A stretch of 64,000 nt of DNA from Nautilus pompilius (Eukaryota > Mollusca > Cephalopoda > Nautilida > Nautilidae). The position numbers and the translations under genes were made by a program. The notes below the pieces were generated by a model. That model was not told the DNA's origin and did no database searches. It worked only from the letters and a program-made list of their open reading frames with translations. The stretch spans positions 1,157,501-1,221,500 of the forward strand of contig JACATO010000329.1 of NCBI GenBank assembly GCA_018389105.1, written 5' to 3'. This document shows positions 2,652 to 58,145 of this stretch, piece after piece (the stretch's first letter is position 1; each line of letters opens with the position of its first letter).

Positions 2652-2683
<32 letters not shown>

Positions 2684-3021
2684 CTATAGACTCTTCTCTC
2701 AGCTCTCTCTCGTCTCTCTCGCTCTTACTCTCGCGCAAGCTCTCTCTCTCTCTCTCTCTTACGCTCTCTCCATCTCTCTCTCATGCTCTCTCTCTCATCT
2801 CTCTCTCTCTCACGCGTCTCTCTCGCCAGCTCTCTTCTCTCTCAACTCTCTCTCTCTTCCTCCTCTCTCTCATCTCTCTCTCTCTCTTCATTATCTCTGT
2901 CTCTCACTCTCTCTCTCTCTCCATCTATCTCTCCTCTTCATCTCTCTGTCTCTCACTTCTCTCTCTCCATCTCTCTCTCTCTCTCTCTCTCCATCTCTCT
3001 CTCTCTCACTCTTCACTCTCT

Positions 3022-3110
<89 letters not shown>

Positions 3111-3115
3111 CATCC
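2640..3115. repeat. (CT)n microsatellite, about 470 bp, interrupted
   Basis: This is a nearly pure pyrimidine tract of CT dinucleotides broken by short words such as catct, cacgcg and tcttca. The longest perfect run lies at about 3030-3092. Open frames through it encode only Ser/Leu or Arg/Glu repeats and are artefacts. Confidence 0.95.
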
Positions 3116-8693: not shown

Positions 8694-8968
8694 GAATCTC
8701 TCTCTCTCTCCCCCTCTCCCTCTTTCTGTACTGACGTTATATCACCATCTCTCTCTGTACTGACGTTATATCGTCTCTCTGTTTTCTCTTCTCTCTCTCT
8801 CTGTACTGACGTTATATCGTCTCTCTGTCTCTCTGCACTGACCTCATTCTCTCTCTCTCTCTCTCTCTCTCTGTACTGACGTTATATCGTCTCTCTGTCT
8901 CTCTGCACTGACCTCATTTCTCTCTCTGTCTCTCTGCACTGACCTCATTCTCTCTCTCTCCCTCTCTG

Positions 8969-8999
<31 letters not shown>

Positions 9000-9000
9000 C
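8694..9000. repeat. CT-rich minisatellite with a repeated TGACGTTATATCG unit
   Basis: A compound tandem repeat. Blocks of (CT)n alternate with the word TGTACTGACGTTATATCG, seen four times (the first diverged), and TGCACTGACCTCATT, seen three times. The composite units are about 40-80 bp, so this is a higher-order array and not a plain dinucleotide. Confidence 0.85.
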
Positions 9001-25924: not shown

Positions 25925-28900
25925 ATGGAGGCGTGTAGCGCGGCTCCTGCAGAAGTGGAAAGGCTACGGGCTGAATTACGCGAAAAGGATTCCGAAATCC
26001 TGCGATTAAGAAGCCTGCTTGAAGAAAGGGTAGCTATTTTCATCCTAACTGATTTTGCTTCGCCGCTTCCTGTGGGGGTTTCGGGACCTCTGCTGCTCGA
26101 CTCTGTGCGAGGGGAGGGGTAATTGTTTTCTCAACGCCAGAAACTAATAAATTAAAAAGGGTTCGTTGAGCAGCCCCTCCATCTCTGCCAGCTCCCTGCT
26201 GTAATATATATATATATATATATAAGTAATCACCATTTTATTTATCTTTTTTTAAACAAGTCAGACGCTGCATTTAAATTAACATTTTCTATCGGGTCAT
26301 CATCATAATATAGTGTAGTATGGCCAAATCCAGAGGGACAGGTAGTTTGTCACTTGTATAAAGGTATCTACTAAATAAGGGCGTTTGTCTTAAATTGTTG
26401 CAGTATTTGCGTTTTATGCTAATTTTTTTTGTGGGGGGGGTGGTGGGACGCTATTACAGAATTTACGCTTTACCGACATTAGTGTTCAAGGGGACGTAAC
26501 TCTCCCTGCCCGCCCCGAGAGGAAATACTCTTGCGACGGGTCCCCGTAATTTCGAGAAACATGGACGGAGGGGGGCGTGAGAAATGATACAAAACCTTAC
26601 TGTACTCCGAGCAGAACCCTGTGTTGTTGTTGTTGTTGTGTGTACCCGTGTTCATGTTTTAAAGATGTTTTCTTTAAATTACGGACGAATGCGAATGTCA
26701 CCGTGGTCTGTGAAGTTATGAGCCTCTGAATGTTGTCAGCGGAAGGTAGACCCAGATTTTGTAGCCATGCCTTATACAGAGAGATTACCTTCACCTTCAC
26801 CTTTGTATATCGCGCCTTCCCCCCCCCCCACACACACAGATGGATAAATAACACAGGGGAACAAATTTTAAATAATTTTCAGTTGCATGGAATATTTTAA
26901 CAAATTTTGATAGAACTTTAGGCGCTGATTTCAAATCTGAAATTAGTTTTTCTCTACAAGCTTTAGTTTGCATGCAATTTGAGGTTAGTGAAATTTTACA
27001 ATGTGAACTTACGTAAACCATATATAAGCATTTTCATGTCCATATAAATTTATAACTTTTTGTATTTTTATAATTAAATTATAATTTATCATTTGTTTCA
27101 GTTTAAACATGGCTTCTATTAAGAGAAATCATTGCAGAAACAAGCCTAATGCCTTCTGCTACATATGTGGATGCTACACACTAAATCGTCAAAAACGTAA
27201 TGTATCCTCCTTTGTCAAGCGTGCTTACAAGGCATATTTTGAAGTTCATCTTGGTGACCAAGACAAGCAATGGGCGCCTCATGTTGTGTGTCACAATTGT
27301 GAAGAAATGCTTCGAGACTGGACCAAAGGAAAACGTAAAAGTCTACCTTTTGGAGTTCCGATGGTTTGGCGTGAACCAACCAATCATTTAACTGACTGTT
27401 ATTTCTGCATGGTAAACACATCGGGAGTTGGAAAAAAAACCGACATAAAATTACGTATCCAAACATTCCCTCAGCTATTCGGCCTACTCCCCACTCTAGA
27501 GAAGTTCCTGTTCCAATATTAAAGGCTTACCTTCATTAGACGATAAAGACATTGAAGATGATACAAACAAACAAAATAGTAGTGACAGTGAAGTGGCAGA
27601 AAAATGTTCGTCGTCGGAGAATTGTTCTTCAGACTCTGAACCTTTTCCCACCCCTAAGCCTCTTCTGCAAGTTGAATTAAATGATTTAGTGCGAGATTTG
27701 GGCCTTTCAAAAAAAGCAGCAGAGGTTTTGGCATCAAGATTACAAAGTAGAAATCTTGTTGATCACTCTGTTAAAGTTTCATATTTTAGAAATCGTGACC
27801 AACTTTTTGTAGCTTTCTTTTCAGAAGACAAACATTTTGTTTACTGCCATGACATTCCAGGGCTTCTTAAAGAACTGGGTGTATCTTACTATAATCCTGC
27901 CGAATGGAGACTCTTTTTGGACAGTTCAAAACGTAGTCTAAAGTGTGTTCTTTTACATAATGGCAATGTTTATGGAGCGGTACCTATCGGTCATTCTGTG
28001 CATTTGCGAGAAGACTATGATGATGTGAGAATAGTCATGGACTTATTAAAATATCATGAGCACAATTGGATCATTTGTGTGGACTTAAAAATAGTCAATT
28101 TTCTTCTTGGACAACAGAAAGGTTTTACCAAGTTTCCATGTTTCCTTTGTATGTGGGACAGCCGAGCACGAGACAAACATTGGGTCCAAAAGAACTGGCC
28201 TATCCGTGAAACTCTTAAAGCTGGCATGCCAAATATCATAAAAGAGCCAATTGTAAACAGAGATAAGATCATCTTCCTCCTCTTCACATAAAATTAGGTT
28301 TGATAAAGCAATTTGTTAAAGCCCTAAAAACCGAAGGTGAATGTTTTCAACACATCATCACAGCTTTACCAGGGTTATCATTTGAAAAAATCAAAGCAGG
28401 TGTGTTTGATGGCCCACAAATTAGAACACTATTTCGTGATAATCAGTTTGTTGCTAAGATGAATGCTTTGGAAAAAGCAGCATGGTTATCTTTTGTGGCA
28501 GTTGTTCAGAACTTTCTCGGAAACTATAAAGCGGAAAACTACTGTGATCTTGTGAACACAATGCTCCTCGCTTTTCGTGATCTCGGGTGCAACATGAGCA
28601 TCAAGCTTCATTTTTTGAACAGCCACCTTGATAAATTCCCTGACAATCTGGGAGCTGTAAGTGACGAACAAGGAGAACGATTCCACCAAGACCTAAAGAT
28701 CATGGAAGAACGTTACCAAGGGCGCTGGAACAAAAGCATGATGGCTGACTACTGCTGGAGCATTAAACGAGATTGCCAAGATAAAGTGTACAAACGCAAA
28801 AGTTACAAACGCAAATTCCTTCCTGGATAAAATACACATTCAGATAAAAACTAATGAAAATATGGCACGATCAACACTAGATAATAATTTAATTTACTCA

Positions 28901-31900
28901 TAAAATTTTTTAATTCTCTATCTTTTGCTTCAATAAATATTTTTAAATGACTTTTTTGCCGTTTTAAGATTAAAGTGAACAGAAGAATTTTGATTAATGT
29001 TGGAATTTGCTAAAATAACGAAAAATAAAAAATGTCAAATTGCATGAAATCTGTAGCTTGCAGACAAAAACCGACTTTAAAATTAAAATCTACATATTCA
29101 AATTGACTAGAAAAAAGTATTTTTTTTAATGCAACAAAATGAGTGTTCCCCAGTGTAATCGTACAATACTTATTTCGGTGACGGTAACGTAAGAAATCTT
29201 GTTGATTTCTGTTTTTATTGCTTTTTACCAAATAAAATGTTTAATGTGGAATTTAATTGTTTTTTGTTGTTGTTGTTGTTTTTTTTTTTTAAAACAGGAA
29301 AATATTCCTCTAACTTTTCCACCAAAAGAATGTAGCAGCAGCGCTTCTCGTTCGGACAGAAACTGTAAGCAAGCTTAGTAATGAAGCTGTAGCCAGGTAC
29401 AGCAGACAGTTGATCCTTCCAGAGTTGGGTGTGAAAGGTAAGTAGTTGGCAAAATAATGAGATGTTGTCTGTACAAATGAAAAAAAAAACAACAAACAAA
29501 AAAACACGAATAAATATAAAGGTTGAAAACCACTGCTGGAGCTTTTGCCCCTGTCCGTGGTGGTATGTGGTCAGGGGTCTGCTGTACAAGTCTACTATGC
29601 CTGTGGAGTTGGTTTCCCAGAATATTAAGACTCCAGGAGCATTTAGGAAAACATTTAATGTAAAGGTGGACTGGACAAACCAGTCTCATGAAACCCTAAC
29701 CAAAAGATAATGATTCTGTTGTTTGAAAGTTGAGTTTGCTCAATCTCTGCCATTTCTGTTTGTCATGGTAGAAGTACTGTATTATGTTAATCCTCTCTGG
29801 CTCAACTCTAGTACCACCCTCACCCGATCGATGTCTGGTTACTGAAATGCTATCTCTAAGGCGTTATGGCTTCAAGAAACAAACTGTTCTCTGTTAATGA
29901 ACTAGGATAGCACATTTGCTTTCTTTTAAGGATTGTATTGCCATTTTTGACAATGTCTGCAAAGTGCATCATTTAACTTGGAGTTTTGGATATTAAAGAA
30001 TTCAGAGTTTAAAATGCTTGTTTATTACCAGTTAATAGAAATAATTGAAAAAAATTATAACCCAAGAACACAGAAATTTTTCACTCTTCTCTCTAATACA
30101 TGCTTTGTATGCTTGAGTAAATGCTAAAAATTATAGATGATCCTTAGTGCATATGATGAACAACAGTTGACATCTGATTTAAATTTCCTTCTCTTCAAAC
30201 ATAGTGCTGCACAAAAGGTCAAGGGTATTGGATATAAAGAAATACTAAATAGTTTACTTTGAAATATTTGTATCTCTCCAGGACATTGTGTGATGGTTTC
30301 ATTAGTGAAAAATTGGTAGCTATCTAAGTTTTCTTGTTCGATATCACATGATCATAATATCAAAAACTGCATGGATCAGATACTGTAATGTATTGTTCTT
30401 AACACCTAGCTAGTACGTATATAGTGCAGACAGCGTCCTGGAATATTGCATCATTTATTCTCCATTGTGATTTGCAGATTAGCCATTGTCTTGTAGTAAT
30501 CAACACATTATTGAAGATCCATGACAATATAGTTATTGTTTCATATCTGTCTTTCTCTGAATGCTACAGCATTTCTTGTCATCAGGATTTCAGCAAGTCA
30601 GTACTTGGTATGTTCACCAATGTTACTATGGAATACCCACAGAAGTCTAATTTGTAGAATGGAATGTGAGCGACATATCCTGGCTTCAGTGTTAATAATG
30701 GCTCTGTGATATAAATGTTTTCCTAGCTCATTCATGGCATCAATTGCTGGCCTGTGTTTGAGCCCCATTGGAAACCAATTTGTTTTGGTGTTCCATTGTT
30801 GTGGACTTCCATTTTCTTTCTACAAATAGAGATGAACTCTAGTAGGAACTTTCTATTTCCTGCTGAACATGGAAGCATTAGATCTCACAAAATGCTGCTT
30901 TGTCTACATTGCATTGGCAAAACTTGTCACCTTGCTATTGGAGGTGGGCATTGTGTTGCTGTAGGAGTCACATTTGTTAAATTGTAGTGCCTCTTACACC
31001 TTATGTTTTATCTCAATCTCATAATGATGATTGGATGTACTGGAACCTCTCTTACTTCTACTGTCACTGAAGCACTCTGGTCACTATTTCCACAGATAAT
31101 TAGCTTTATCTATTGGTTCCTGTAATGCAGGATTATCAGAATAAATGATTGAGGTTTCTGCACATCCCGGGTGTTAAATTTAGAAAACAAAAAATTATTG
31201 TTGAGTACATTTGCAAAGAAACTATCTTTTTGAAATGTTAATTCTTGAGTTTGCTGATTACTTCTAAAATCAGCTAAAACAAATAGTCACCTGTAATTCT
31301 AATCTGAGTTTACTTTTTTTTCAAGTTACTATTTAGCAACTCTAGTTTTAAGTATCGACAATTGTATCTCAAGCTATAATGTTATAGTAAAATGTCTACA
31401 AGTATTTTAAAAGTACATTTGTTTGAAATATGACAGTTTGATTTGAAATGCTCTCTATCCACTGAAACCTGTTAAATAAGAATATGGGTGTTAAAGGATG
31501 GTGAATAACTTCTAAAAAGCCACACAAACAATGTGAGAAGCAAAAAAATAAACACGTTTAAACCAAGATAGTGTTTATTTTTCTGTCGTCTGAAAATAAC
31601 ACTAGTTTTTGGAACTGTTTGATCCACATTAATTTAGGTGTTTTTTTTTTTTCTTTTGAGTTGTGTAAATGTTCATGGAGATGACATCAAGATGTTCTGG
31701 TTATCAAGAAATACTACTATTGTAGTGAATCAAATATTTTAAAGTCTTCTTTTTTTTTCTTGTCAAAAATAATTGTATACATCTGTAGAAATATTTGTTG
31801 AGGCTGCATAGCACCATGGTAACTTCTAACGGTGTTGCCATTTCTTGTGCCTTATGGAGCATGGCAGTTTTACCTTCCGTGGGAATGGAAAGTACCTGGG

Positions 31901-42327: not shown

Positions 42328-45300
42328 TTACTCTATTTCTTTGTGTGATCGTTTTTCATAATTCTTCAGCTTGTACTTTCTCACAAATCTGAAGAAACAA
42401 ATGTGTTAGTTTACTTAAAATCAGATAAGATGGTAGGGGACCTTCACCTTAGTTCTTTTTTTTTTTGTTGAGAAATTTATGGATGTTTTGACAAAAAAAT
42501 TATACAATTTCTATTTATCTCCCCCTTATTTAGAAAATACATAAAATCAACTTTAATTGTCATTTTAATAAAAAAATATGGTAAAAACTAACTTTTGTCT
42601 GATCCGTGGCTCAAGTATATTTCTTCGTTGAAGACTCTTAAACCTGTCGATTATAAGATGACCTTCAGGCTGTAGAACAGAAAAAGTTTGGTTAGTCCCT
42701 TGAAATGTTACCTGCAGCACCCTTATTAAAAATTAAATAATCTAATGTTATGAGATACAGTTGTAGAAAACAATCATTTTAACATAAGAGATGCATGGAT
42801 GCCTCTACTCAGGATATTAAGCCATACATAATTACTCACTTTCAGAAGCCTAAGTGAATCAGTCAGTTCTTCAGACAGTTTGACTTCAATTTCAGACGGT
42901 TCATAGCTGGATGTTTGTTAAGAAAACACATGACGAATAGGCCTGCCCTTGGGAGGGGGGGGGGCATTAAAATAGTTGAATATAAATTAAAAAGCATTAT
43001 TGAGACGATGAAATGATGCATGACATTAGATTTTCCCTCATGCTTTCATTCTGGTTTGCCATGGACAGGTAAGACAAATTTTGATTTCTGTCTATGAAAT
43101 ACAGGTTTTTATACACCTTTTTTTGTGGGGAAGGCAGAAGAGTTGAGTGACAGCAGTAAGGGGAGTTGTTGTTGTAAACCACATCTTATACTCTGAAGTA
43201 TCACATCATTCTTGTACCTTCTATCAGGTTTTTTTCCCCCAGAAAATTTGATTAAAAAATATTGCTCCATTCAGTACAATGAGATGAATTTCAGTTACCT
43301 CTCTACCCTACTCCAATATTTCGATAATGCTGAATACAAAGTTCAAAACCTCAGGTGTTTATCATTCAAAAATAAAATAAGGTCTTGCCAGAGTAAGACG
43401 AGTTACTGTCAATTGTAAATGTTTTCCAAGTCGTCGTCGTTGTCGTCATAAGTTGTATTGCTCACAAAACAAAGGATACTTTAATTTTCCCAGGATCTTT
43501 GGTTCTGTTTTCTTTTTCTCTGCCAGTTTTTTCTTCTGCTGTTTTCTGATCATTGTCTTCTCTTTCATCTCCTTAATGTCTTTTTTCAGGGAATGGATTC
43601 TAAATCGAGAGAGATTAAATATCAGAGTGGGGAGGAATACTCTTGTACGCAGTTTTTCCTTCTGAAATTCAGGTAGAATATAAAGAATTAAAAAAAAAAG
43701 TTCTTCATTACACAAACACCATCCAACATTTTTTCTGCTGACTAAGATCTGACGCTTGTTTTTAACTGATTTGAAAAATAAAATAGGCAAAAACCAATCA
43801 CATCAAGCTTTTGTTCTATGGGATCTTAAAATGGTTAACTTTTTACTTGGTCAACAACAAGGAGGATACACGAAATATCCATGTTTTTTGTGCCTGTGGG
43901 ATAGTAGAGCTAAGGACAAGTATTGGATTCAGAATAACTGGCTGGTGAGAACATGCTTAAATGTCGGAGAACCAAATATCAAAAACCAACCATTAGTAGA
44001 TCGGGTAAAAATCATCTACCCTCCTCTCCACATCAAGCTGGGTCTAATGAAGCAGTATGTTAAAGCTTTGAGCATAGAAGGTGACTGTTTTAAGTACATA
44101 TGCACAACCTTTCCTAGCCTCAGTTATGAAAAAATAGAAGCTGGTGAAAGATCACCATTTCACAAGCTCCATGAATGATATGGAGAAAAGAGCATGGAAT
44201 TCTTTTGTAGTGGTTGTGAAAAAGCTGAAAATTACAAAGATCTTACTCAAACATTGCTTAAGAATTTTCATTGTCTGGGGTGCAACATGAGCATAAAGGT
44301 TCATTTCCTCAACAGTCATCTTGATAATTTTTTGAAAATCTAGATGATGTAAGTGATGAGCAAGGTGAAAGGTTCCATCAAGATATACAAGCTATGGAGG
44401 AGTGATACCAAGGAAGGTGGGATACTCACATGATGGCTGACTACTGTTGGAGTATTAAAAGAGACTGTCTGGAAATGAAGCACTCCAGAAAAGCCTACAA
44501 ATGAAAATTTAATCCACGAAGGAAGAATGTGTCATTTACTGTAAATAAACCCATGTCTGTCATTGTTTTGTTTGTACGGTATTCTAAATGAAATGATAAG
44601 AATATTCTGGATTAGTTTGTGCCCATTTTTGACTAAAATTCATTCAATTCTAGCATCAATATTTTAACCAATATATTTGTTAATCTCAAAAATGATTCAT
44701 GGTATTCTAAATAAAATGATAAGAATAGGATTGAGGAGATTGTGGAAATCATTGTAATCGGGTACTTTTTTATGGTGATTGATCGGAAATGGGGGTATGG
44801 TGTAGAGCAAAAACTTGTGATATCTGAGTTCAGTGCCCCAAAATTAGTCAGAAACAAGTCTCAGATATAAGTCAGTAAAAATTGTGTTGACCAAGCGTAA
44901 TCTAGAATGAGAACTGTCTACCTCCTTAATAAAGATAACAATCTAAGATATACGATTTTGACCACACATCTATGTTATGGAGGGAAATTAAAGTAGGCAG
45001 GTAGTTAAAATTAGTAATTCACAAACTGTCTCCCACCACTTCAGTTTAAATCTTAACTGATTGTGAAGCCAACCCTAGTATAACTCACTTTCTCTAAATG
45101 GAAATACAGCCACTCTTACCTGTAGACTTCATTCTCTCTCCTCTTGTACAGTTTTTCTGCTTTTCTTTTAAAATCCTGTTTTAAAAAAATTTTTTTCTCA
45201 GTACAAAAATCCATATATGAGTTTTTTTTTTTTTAAAACTATGTAGTGAGGTTATGCAAGCAGATTCTTGAGTTTGACTGATATTTTTGATTCACAAGGC

Positions 45301-54300: not shown

Positions 54301-57300
54301 GGTTATGAAATTGCAGTTGTTCTACTTTTAGATGTATAGGCTTGCATGCAGTGGTGCAGTCTACTCAACAGTGGGCAGCAATGCAGTGCAATGGGGTTAT
54401 GGAAAATAGGTGTACTCAGTGTGTGAGATCTGACAGCATCTTGCACTGAATAAACCTTGTTAAGTGTACACCAGAGATTCCTTGCAAACTGTAATCTTTT
54501 TTAATCACATACTGACTACTTCCCAAGTACTGACTGAAGCTTAATATAGGAAACCAAGAAAAGATAGTTTTGCCTTTAAATGTGCGGTGGCAGTGAGTCA
54601 CTAAAGTAGTAAAGATTTTTATAACGAGATGAAGCAGTTGCAAGGGAACAAGGCCATGTATACACTTAGCTCTATTTCACCAAACAAACTGCTGCTGTTG
54701 TTGTCAAGAGCACTGCTACAGGATTCGATTTTAACAGATAAGTGCACGCTTCTGGAAAACATAGTATGGTGCAAGTTTAGGAACAGCGCACATGCTAAAT
54801 CATAATCACCTTAACGTTAAGAAAGTGTGCCACCCTTCCAAATGTTCCAACATCATGCTGTGCAGACAAAGATAAATCCCCACTACAACATCCTCATCAG
54901 TATCACTGTGGATGAGACCTGGTTGAATCACCAGAACTCTCTCTAAATAAATTCAGCATGTGGCAATCAGTGGGTTAACTGATGGCAATAGAACACAACA
55001 ATCAAAATACTATAACCTCAAATTTTAGTCTTGGAAAGCAGTATATGCCTAAACATTATCCAGGAATGCTGCAGCCTACAATTAAAGAGAGTGTTGCTTT
55101 AACCAGCCTGGTCTGCTCAAGAAGTTGGGTCTTTAGTGGGGATCAATGTTTTAGTATTGATGTGAGATCAGTGAAGTGTCATAGCTTGAAGCAACAATTG
55201 TAGTAGTAAGAATGGTAGACCTAAACACACAACTACTGCTGATAATTATGCTGAAAAGTTAGTACCTATCTGGACTAACTCTTGTGAACCACAAAATAGT
55301 CTTTAATATTGAAATACCCTCCTAAAATCACAGCTTACACTTCAAAATGTTTCTTATCAAGTTGATTACCTTCATGTTTTATCAGTGGCAGGTTCTTATC
55401 AATAAAGAAAATATTGTTCTTCTTTGTATTATCTCTGTAAAAGAAAAGAAAGATACTGAAATATTACTGCAAGGTAATTTAGTTAGACTAAACATGCAAT
55501 CCAAGTTTACACCAAAGATTCATTTCAAAGATTATAAAGCATAACAAACACTCTTACTTAGAAATCTCAATATAATTTTTATATCCAAGTATTATTTGAA
55601 ATCTCTGGCATTCTGCAATATCAATAATCTTTGAGTTAGTACCACAATTTTTTTTTCTATTAAAGCAATTATTTTTCCAGAGTTCAAAGTAATATAACAT
55701 CTGGTGTGTCCATATCACAAGATCAGATAACAAAACTCCATAAACTTTACTGAAGACCAAGCTGCCCAACAAAGATAGCACATGATTTCAATCAGACTAA
55801 ACTGTGGTTAGAGTTGTCTACTTTCTGCTGCATATCAAATTTCCTAAACTTAAATAAAACTGTTAAGGCATATCAACTGTTTCCAGCTCTTGTTTAAATA
55901 AACTGAGAATATTAGATCTACCAAGGAATGTTAGATGCTTAAGAGATCTAATAGAAGTTTTTAATGGGTAGACAGTATCAGTAACTGTTTATAGTTGCCC
56001 CAAGGATCATAATTATAAATTAACTAAGATTTAAAAACAGCTACGATGGTTGAAAGCGGAAGCGATCTAGATACACCACATACCCATACAACTTTACACC
56101 AGAGTTAGCTACTTTGTGGACTAAATAAATTGTTAGGCGCAGAAAAGAGAATTTTTAAAACATGGTTAGATATCAGAAAATGTATTTTCAGTAATGGGAA
56201 TGCTAATGAGCAGGAAAAATTACCAACGAGAATACTTCATAGTTAGTCTTAATCAATTTAGGAATGGTAATGATGGCCAATTCTCTTGGACCTTCCTTGT
56301 TTCTCCTAACTACTGACCTAAACAAGATTGTCTCTAAAATTCCAATAAGAAAATAATATTAAAAAATCAAAAAAAATTCTAATAACAAACCATATTTGAA
56401 ACATGTTTGCAGATATGGGTATATATTTGTTACATAACAAGAGTTACCATAATCAGTATTTATCAGATGAAAATCGATTAAAAAATCTGAAGCTGCTGAG
56501 GTCCCGGTCCACGTACAGCGCTACCTTTTATGCTATATATAAAATAAAGCAGGTTACCTACCTGCGGCAACATCGATAGACAAGAAATCATCTCTAACAT
56601 TTTCACTGGGTAACCTGAGTTTAAAAGGCAAGGTCCTCCAGAACATGAAGTCAGGAGGGAAATATGTCACTGGTAGCACTGTTCAGAAGGGAACATTGCC
56701 TCCCTGTGATATCTGCCTAGACTACCTACTGTAAATCTAGTTATGCGCATCCAACAGAGAGAGAGAGAGAGAATGGGTAACAGAGAGAGAGAAAGAGAGA
56801 GAATGGGTAACAGAGAGAGAGAGAGAGAGAGAGAGAGAATGGGTACAGAGAGAGAGGAGAGAGAGAGAGAGAGGAGAATGGGTAACAGAGAGAGAGAGAG
56901 AGAGAGATAGAATGGGTAACAGAGAGAGAGAAAGAGAGAGAATGGGTAACAGAGAGAGGAGAGAGAGAATGGGTAACAGAGAGAGAGAGAGAGAGAGAGA
57001 GAATTGGTACGAGCGAGAGAGATAGAGAGAGAATGGGTAACAGAGAGAGAGAGATAGAGAATGGGTAACAGAGAGAGAGAGATAGAGAATGGGTAACAGA
57101 GAGAGAGAGAGAGCTTGGGTAACAGAGAGGAGATAGATAGAGAGACTGGTTAACGAGAGAGAGATCTCGAGACTGGGTAACTCTATAGAGGAGAGAGAGT
57201 TTAAGTATAGCGAGAGAGAAGAGAGAGAATCCCTTCTCGACTAGAGAGAGAGAGAGAGAGAAGTTGTTTACCAGAGAGAGAGAGAGAGAGAGCCCTTTAT

Positions 57301-58145
57301 GGGTAACAGAGAGAGAGAAGAGAGACGAATGGGTTTCCCCTCTCTCTTTCTCGCTAGAATGATACCCGCTCGCTCTCGCTCTCTCATGTTATAATCGCTC
57401 TCTCTCTCGCTCGCGCCTAGCCTGTTTCCCCTCTGCTCTCTCTATCGCGACCTTGGTTTTTGATCCCTCTCTCTCGCTCTCGCCCTTTTTCCCAGAGCTC
57501 GCTCTCGCTCCTGCGGTAACAGAGAGAGGATAGAGAATCTCCTTTTCACAGAGATAGGAGAGAGAATGGGAACCGAGAGAGAGAGAGAGAAGACGGTTAA
57601 GCGAGCGAGAGAGAGCTCGAAGAGAATAGTTAGCGGTCGAAGAGAGAGAGAGCAAGAGCGAGCGAATGGTAAACACAGCGAGAGAGATCGAGCATGGGTA
57701 CCCGAGAGAGAGCGCTAGCTACTGGGTAACAGAGAGAGAGAGCGAGCAATGGGTAAAGGAGCGAGAGAGCGAATTGGTACAGAGAGAGAGAGCGAGAGAC
57801 TGGGTACCGCACGCAAGAGTCGCGCGAGAGAGAGAGAGAGAGCGCATGGGTCCCGCCAGCGAGATGGGTACCGAGAGCTCTGCTTCGAGAGATCGTCGTT
57901 TTTACACTTCGAGCGAGGTGTTAAGAGAACAGTAATAAGCGAAATCGCGAATACACCTACAACAACCGTGCTCTCCCAGGTCTCCCAGCAACTTGTATAA
58001 TTGGAATTTACCCAAGATACTGTTCCTGGTTCTTCTCGGACGCCAAGAAGTCTTCCGTATCCTTCACATCGGTCTTCCTCCACGCCTTTTTCTTATTTTT
58101 CGCCACGTGAATTCTACGCGAGGATCTCTTCGGCTTGGCGGCCAT
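42328..58145 (-). CDS. Nop53: NOP53 (GLTSCR2) ribosome biogenesis factor (13 exons, complete)
   Basis: Exons in coding order: 58145-58012, 56614-56562, 53960-53876, 52198-52044, 50714-50644, 50537-50442, 49663-49559, 46979-46824, 45175-45120, 43599-43480, 42906-42840, 42669-42593, 42388-42328. They join without a break to 1236 nt, 411 aa, against 478 in human. NOP53 is a nucleolar protein that recruits the Mtr4-exosome to pre-60S particles for 5.8S rRNA 3'-end maturation. Recognisable blocks are the basic N-terminus (KKKAWRK), SFDLWG, the family signature PHPGASYNP (residues 184-192), RPRTRQQRRRAAKKK, the K/E-rich helix of exon 10, YEPSEIEVKLSEELTDSLR (exon 11), RFKSLQRRNILEPR (exon 12) and the basic end KYKLKNYEKR. 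The ATG has a good Kozak context. Exons 2 and 3 are the least conserved and rest mainly on phase and splice sites. Intron 10 is U12-type. Introns 2, 3, 7 and 9 hold transposon relics, and intron 1 holds a GA array. Confidence 0.94.
42907..43479 (-). other. U12-type intron (NOP53 intron 10)
   Basis: Read on the minus strand, the donor is GTATCCTTT, an exact U12 match. The branch site TTTCTTAAC differs by one base from consensus and lies about 11 bases before the acceptor, with no polypyrimidine tract between. Phase 2. Confidence 0.85.
43783..44510 (+). pseudogene. 5'-truncated second copy of the Cys-rich putative transposase
   Basis: This lies in NOP53 intron 9 on the opposite strand. It starts within the conserved core at [20 protein letters not shown] and runs open as far as 44178 ([27 protein letters not shown]). 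It then continues in other frames with [28 protein letters not shown] and [13 protein letters not shown]. It lacks the zinc-binding N-terminus and the linker and has several frameshifts and stops. It is clearly related to the protein at 27.1-28.8 kb but well diverged, so it is not a recent duplicate. Confidence 0.8.
44572..44740. repeat. Short direct duplication
   Basis: The word GGTATTCTAAATGAAATGAT at about 44578 recurs with one change at about 44701, each followed by AAGAATA. It follows the truncated transposase copy directly and may be part of that element's 3' region. Confidence 0.5.
48320..48890 (+). pseudogene. Pogo/Tigger-like transposase relic in NOP53 intron 7
   Basis: In broken frames the plus strand reads LDNSTTHSVNH and NITLKIFPPNA, matching the DDE region of pogo-like (Tigger/Jerky) transposases (LLDN-PAH, NI-L-FLPPN). 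FDAGIVVAF follows (compare QPLDAGIIAAFK), then INLINENWK and VPTTGEL, both typical of the C-terminal part. Frameshifts and stops are numerous. Confidence 0.55.
51725..51970 (+). mobile_element. Possible tRNA-derived SINE relic
   Basis: The stretch starts with a tRNA-like segment, CAGTTAGGCTACTGGACC, which resembles an A-box and anticodon arm, followed by a weak B-box-like GTTTGGTACAC. A non-tRNA body follows and an A-rich end is near 51985. No second copy was found in the window, so the call rests on the promoter-like words alone. Confidence 0.3.
52640..53470 (+). pseudogene. Tc1-like transposase relic in NOP53 intron 3
   Basis: In broken frames the plus strand gives HSGRQRVTSQ and QEQYI (the helix-turn-helix part), then KFWFNLSFNNG (compare ESRFNLSFSDGR), then RTINDFLQ and MDWPS, and near the end CRAYIYTQGTMYYV (compare RC-A-I-A-GGHT-Y). 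Order and spacing fit a full-length Tc1 transposase of about 1 kb. Stops are frequent, and the PIEHVWD block is not preserved. Confidence 0.55.
54800..54980 (+). pseudogene. Possible mariner-like transposase fragment in NOP53 intron 2
   Basis: Two short pieces, LNVKKVCH and ITVDETWLNH, have the order and spacing of the mariner N-terminal linker and the first catalytic Asp block (DETW). The flanking sequence cannot be followed, so this is weak. Confidence 0.35.
56745..57900. repeat. (GA)n array with interspersed AATGGGTAAC words, in NOP53 intron 1
   Basis: About 1.15 kb of AGAGAG blocks is punctuated by GAATGGGTAACAGAG units, more than ten copies, some degraded. Between about 57335 and 57500 the strand composition flips to CT-rich and then returns to GA-rich, which means an inverted segment inside the array. 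The right end lies about 110 bp from the exon 1 donor of NOP53. Open frames here encode only low-complexity Arg/Glu or Ser/Leu. Confidence 0.9.

Follow-up and report, generated by a model that had tools for sequence, protein, structure and literature searches.

A 64-kb stretch of the Nautilus pompilius genome (positions 1,157,501 to 1,221,500 of contig JACATO010000329.1 in assembly GCA_018389105.1; all 64,000 nucleotides are called the window below) contains a 2304-bp element that is very probably one copy of a young autonomous family of Chapaev3 transposons, cut-and-paste elements of the CMC/Transib group. The assignment is made because published work names as hallmarks of Chapaev3 the CAC...GTG ends, the TWA target-site duplication lying between A and T, the lack of introns in the gene and the protein motifs C(2)C, LH and H(4)H. 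According to the excerpted text of PMC4079192, Chapaev3 termini are CAC and GTG, the duplication is TWA in all members examined there and always falls between A and T, and the transposases, mostly encoded by a single exon, carry the motifs C(2)C, LH and H(4)H. Within the CMC/Transib group, Chapaev3 forms one branch (PMC4079192, in excerpt; PMC12730594). The element is thus a member of an already described group and not a new family. The first-pass annotation of the window had delimited the transposon and had regarded its protein as an uncharacterised family that could not be placed; the latter view has to be given up, since motif order, ends and target together make up the published Chapaev3 signature.

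Ends, genomic copies and age of the family

The element starts with CACAGGGGAACA and finishes at its 3' end with TGTTCCCCAGTG, and TAA stands immediately outside each end, as the first-pass annotation had claimed. Exact matches to CACWGGGGAACA occur only twice in the window, at the two ends of the element on opposite strands (Table 1), and allowing up to two mismatches gives 13 matches against a chance expectation of 6.6. The inverted arms, put at about 125 bp in that annotation, are real and imperfect: they align over 131 bp on the left and 121 bp on the right, with a local score of 47 as against a maximum of 43 across 1000 shuffles.

The decisive check of these boundaries is a DNA search of the animal's own genome (727.6-Mb assembly, 2558 contigs), in which 40 of 1580 candidates were scored and 42 matches obtained, the internally deleted copies L037 and L040 each accounting for two of these. 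The genome holds at least 40 insertions and quite possibly more, 40 being the number of candidates scored. Among the 40 scored, 36 are full length, two (L037 and L040) are internally deleted and two (L038 and L039) lack the left end. Because 38 of the 40 keep both ends at the same bases, the boundaries of the element are real. Every one of these 38 starts with CAC and finishes with GTG, the copy L006 having a single mismatch within the left 12 bases. Many copies with the same ends, which the first-pass annotation had named, together with TAA flanks, as confirmation, are present, and all 38 are flanked by TWA. The protein is likewise tied to a bounded, multicopy DNA transposon, as had been proposed, the 36 full-length copies containing the same internal gene.

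The target site is equally uniform. The left flank reads A-TWA and the right flank TWA-T in all 38 copies with both ends, the bases at -4, -3, -1, +1, +3 and +4 being unchanged in every one, and the duplication is identical on the two sides in 33. Across 30 copies, the conserved A is preceded by A or G in 29 and the conserved T is followed by C or T in 25, so that the insertion target is roughly R-A-TWA-T-Y.

The 30 aligned copies are 98.9-99.96% identical in pairwise comparison (mean 99.5%). Relative to L010, the private coding changes of the other 29 copies comprise 76 nonsynonymous, 22 synonymous and 7 stop changes, near the 72%, 24% and 5% expected without selection, while changes common to several copies comprise 6 nonsynonymous, 1 synonymous and 1 stop change. 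There are 141 private changes in all, or 146 when those of L010 itself are counted, three of the latter being nonsynonymous. In noncoding sequence, 36 private changes in 585 bp of 29 copies correspond to a divergence of about 0.2% per site per copy. An intact frame of 574 codons starting from the same ATG is found in 5 of 38 copies (L002, L004, L005, L010 and L035). Near-identical copies, near-neutral private changes and the small share of intact frames together mean that the family spread recently and that most examined copies, including the one in the window, are now broken. A separate observation is that L020, L024, L026, L028, L029 and L030 (6 of the 30 aligned copies) all lack the same 15 bases at the gene's 3' end, where a short tandem repeat near 28789-28815 has lost one unit; the deletion marks a possible subfamily.

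The transposase gene and a proposed mechanism

The single intronless coding region of about 574 codons described by the first-pass annotation exists in the five intact sister copies, each with 574 codons, and not in the window copy, where three one-base frameshifts divide it into three open pieces, the stretch between the first and second breaks lying in a third frame. Among the 30 aligned copies, two of these frameshifts are unique to the window copy and the remaining one also occurs in L007; those one-base length differences that fall in homopolymers could be assembly errors. In the intact copies, the 574-codon frame fills the element and the next frame on the same strand is only 63 amino acids long.

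The reference protein used here, P0001, is the natural reading of L010 and has 574 amino acids. Its motifs follow the order D272, D326, C345-x2-C348, LH394, H502-x4-H507 and E521/E524, with D272, D326 and E521 or E524 at the positions expected of the three catalytic acidic residues from this order. D326 and C345 are 19 residues apart, and RAG1 has the same spacing of 19 residues from its second D to the first C of C(2)C. The motifs are consistent with the D/D/E RNase H-like fold that the first-pass annotation had predicted.

A cut-and-paste cycle can be proposed on this basis. The 574-residue transposase made from intact sister copies would bind the inverted ends and cut the element out in a metal-dependent D/D/E (RNase H-like) reaction. 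The excised element would then be joined into A-TWA-T sites, where repair of the 3-nt stagger would leave the TWA duplication. The transposase may still be active today, and the window copy, with complete ends and a broken gene, would be mobile only if transposase were supplied from elsewhere.

Alternative readings and points against the assignment

A 3-bp duplication, together with the inverted arms, had led the first-pass annotation to suggest that the element inserts in the manner of PIF/Harbinger but has an unrelated-looking protein. PIF/Harbinger elements do have a TWA duplication, and the excerpted text of PMC4482050 further describes an average length of about 4124 bp, terminal inverted repeats that usually begin with A or G, and, in most candidate autonomous elements, two open reading frames, for a DDE/HTH transposase and a Myb/SANT protein. 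The TWA duplication alone is not diagnostic of PIF/Harbinger because Chapaev3 shares it, and a TWA flanked by A and T is the Chapaev3 signature itself (PMC4079192, in excerpt). The element differs from PIF/Harbinger in having one gene instead of two, ends that begin with C (38 of 38) instead of A or G, a length of only 2.3 kb, and a 574-residue protein without a Pfam transposase match; the second, Myb/SANT gene is absent from the frames of the intact copies and from their Pfam results. Every discriminating feature tested favours Chapaev3, which leaves the PIF/Harbinger suggestion very improbable. A still smaller, practically negligible probability attaches to the view that a pair of miniature inverted-repeat transposable elements (MITEs), or another repeat, surrounds a host gene, a possibility that the first-pass annotation had itself raised as a refutation. 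The broken frame in the window would suit a captured pseudogene, but in all 36 full-length copies the match runs from one end to the other and takes in the same gene, two more differ by internal deletion, and the genome copies thus rule it out.

Closer to the Chapaev3 assignment is the idea that the element belongs to a superfamily of its own, inside the CMC/Transib group or adjoining it, and simply has its motifs and target in common with Chapaev3. The group is diverse, C(2)C and H(3-4)H are common across it (PMC12730594), and the likeness to Chapaev3 is known from hallmarks and not from a direct sequence match. However, LH, H(4)H, A-TWA-T, CAC/GTG, the intronless gene, the length of about 2.3 kb and the protein size of 556-574 amino acids all coincide with Chapaev3, so that a separate superfamily has little chance of being correct. 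A wholly new superfamily was set aside, the hallmarks coinciding with Chapaev3, and Academ, Zator, Kolobok and KDZ were considered and dropped given the same hallmarks.

Several results count against placing the element in Chapaev3. The placement depends on several agreeing hallmarks and not on a tree or an alignment to a named Chapaev3 transposase. No match at the family cut-off was obtained in Pfam for the first open piece or P0001, or in NCBIfam for P0001, and an AlphaFold2 single-sequence model of the transposase has a predicted local distance difference test (pLDDT) score of 34.9, unusable for the fold. The one match of P0001 in the Protein Data Bank (PDB) by phmmer is a collagen IV chain (E = 0.0021, residues 60-109), which is read as chance similarity between cysteine-containing stretches. 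An empty site was not found among the flanks of 30 loci; among the matches listed, only simple TAA repeats spanned the junctions. Finally, the duplication differs between the two sides in 5 of 38 copies, at the central base only, being TTA/TAA in L015, L023, L026 and L033 and TAA/TTA in L034, while point mutation at about 0.2% divergence predicts well under one such mismatch in 38.

The likeliest explanation of these mismatches appears to be gene conversion, or assembly polishing, from a sister copy: a conversion tract reaching the element end could exchange W alone, because the homology between copies spans the end and the surrounding A, T and A. There is a small chance that they reflect Chapaev3 integration itself, the duplication then not always being copied from one target; a mismatched W would result, for instance, if the element were joined into a heteroduplex or into ends produced by a different excision.

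Other searches returned little. The first, 137-residue piece has Pfam matches below the cut-off to Zn_ribbon_12 (E 0.026), FYVE (0.63) and DUF5637 (0.89). The third open piece has no match in PDB by sequence, and Rfam gave nothing at the gathering score in the window. No relatives were found in IMG/VR, in GTDB contigs (one 9-residue pattern searched only), in phages (the 176-residue third piece searched only) or, for P0001, in plasmids. A literature text search for peptide strings of the protein gave no match, and the 18 papers matching the 12-base ends have off-topic titles among those listed, the matches presumably being primers.

Other features of the window and relation to known transposons

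A second sequence of this kind is found in the window at 43789-44516 (Table 1). It is 65.9% identical to the element over 695 bp by blastn and, by tblastn against P0001, 53% identical over residues 315-511 and 68% over residues 511-573. It contains stops and a frame change; matching terminal repeats were looked for around it and none were found. A Pfam search of 10 of the 32 stop-to-stop frames of the window, including the frame of this relic at 43753-44175, gave nothing at E up to 0.1. Hence transposons of this kind have been present in the host as at least two families. Elsewhere the window has long AG/TC-rich arrays at 56756-57796, 2652-3111 and 8703-9000, in one of which a AATGGGTAAC unit recurs inside (AG)n.

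Table 1. Positions in the window of the element, its parts and the related relic
Feature	Position	Strand	Remarks
DNA transposon, very probably of Chapaev3 type, full length, 2304 bp, transposase gene broken by frameshifts	26852..29155	+	own genome: 36 full-length copies, this one among them, and 4 partial
Target base A (26848, conserved) and left target-site duplication TAA (26849-26851)	26848..26851	.	A at -4 in 38/38 copies
Left terminal inverted repeat CACAGGGGAACA	26852..26863	+
Left inverted arm, inner part	26927..26982	.	77% complementary to 29035-29090 (56-nt block)
Transposase, first open piece, 137 amino acids, ATG start	27109..27522	+	coding frame lost before its end; same ATG opens the 574-codon frame in L002, L004, L005, L010 and L035
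N-terminal cysteine-rich region, candidate Chapa-type zinc finger	27157..27408	+	Cys17, 20, 22, 61, 64, 97 and 100 of P0001 seen; Chapa likeness putative, from PMC4411706 (in excerpt)
Transposase, second open piece (stop to stop)	27500..28291	+	contains D272, D326 and C(2)C
First catalytic Asp, predicted	27920..27922	+	D272 of P0001 (LFLDSSK); putative role
Second catalytic Asp, predicted	28082..28084	+	D326 of P0001 (ICVDLK); putative role
C(2)C motif CFLC	28139..28150	+	Cys345/Cys348; motif named in PMC4079192 (in excerpt) and PMC12730594
Transposase, third open piece	28267..28830	+	contains LH, H(4)H and final Glu
LH motif in PPLHIKLG	28282..28287	+	His394; PMC4079192 (in excerpt)
H(4)H motif HFLNSH	28609..28626	+	His502/His507; PMC4079192 (in excerpt)
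Final catalytic Glu, predicted	28666..28677	+	Glu521 or Glu524; putative role
Right inverted arm, inner part	29035..29090	.
Right terminal inverted repeat CACTGGGGAACA (as read on the - strand)	29144..29155	-
Right target-site duplication TAA (29156-29158) and target base T (29159, conserved)	29156..29159	.	T at +4 in 38/38 copies
Decayed, 5'-truncated relic of a related transposase	43789..44516	+	53% and 68% amino acid identity, in two pieces

The protein is now firmly tied both to a mobile element and to a group that has a name. In 2014 the biology of Chapaev transposons was described as largely uncharacterised (PMC4079192, in excerpt). This family, being young and having five copies that look intact and many nearly identical insertions, offers convenient material for testing whether a Chapaev3 transposase is active. 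Beyond this value the result is routine transposon annotation.

The element resembles the Chapaev3 transposons Merrow, Garfield and Conan in its CAC...GTG ends, the TWA between A and T, the C(2)C, LH and H(4)H motifs and the length of about 2.3 kb. Garfield_BM from silkworm has 2289 bp and encodes 556 amino acids in two exons, and Merrow_PM has 2451 bp (PMC4079192, in excerpt). The gene of the element is intronless, as in most Chapaev3 members, whereas those of Merrow and Garfield have two exons. Amplified MITEs are reported for Chapaev3 in the excerpted PMC4079192, while here there are two single internally deleted copies among 40 insertions. In the wider CMC/CMCT group, Chapaev, EnSpm/CACTA, Mirage and Transib/RAG1 share 5'-CA..TG-3' ends and target-site duplications of 2-5 bp (PMC12730594; PMC4411706, in excerpt), and the group and the element are alike in that the stretch from the second D to the last E contains C(2)C and H(3-4)H (PMC12730594). 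The excerpted PMC4411706 describes an N-terminal zinc-finger Chapa domain in Chapaev3, with which the N-terminal cysteine-rich region of the element may correspond, and compares this domain with the N-terminus of RAG1. The near-identical copies described above share one kind of target. The duplication in Transib is 5 bp. That of the element, unlike those of the other CMC/CMCT members, is strictly TWA between A and T, a trait reported for Chapaev3 (PMC4079192, in excerpt).

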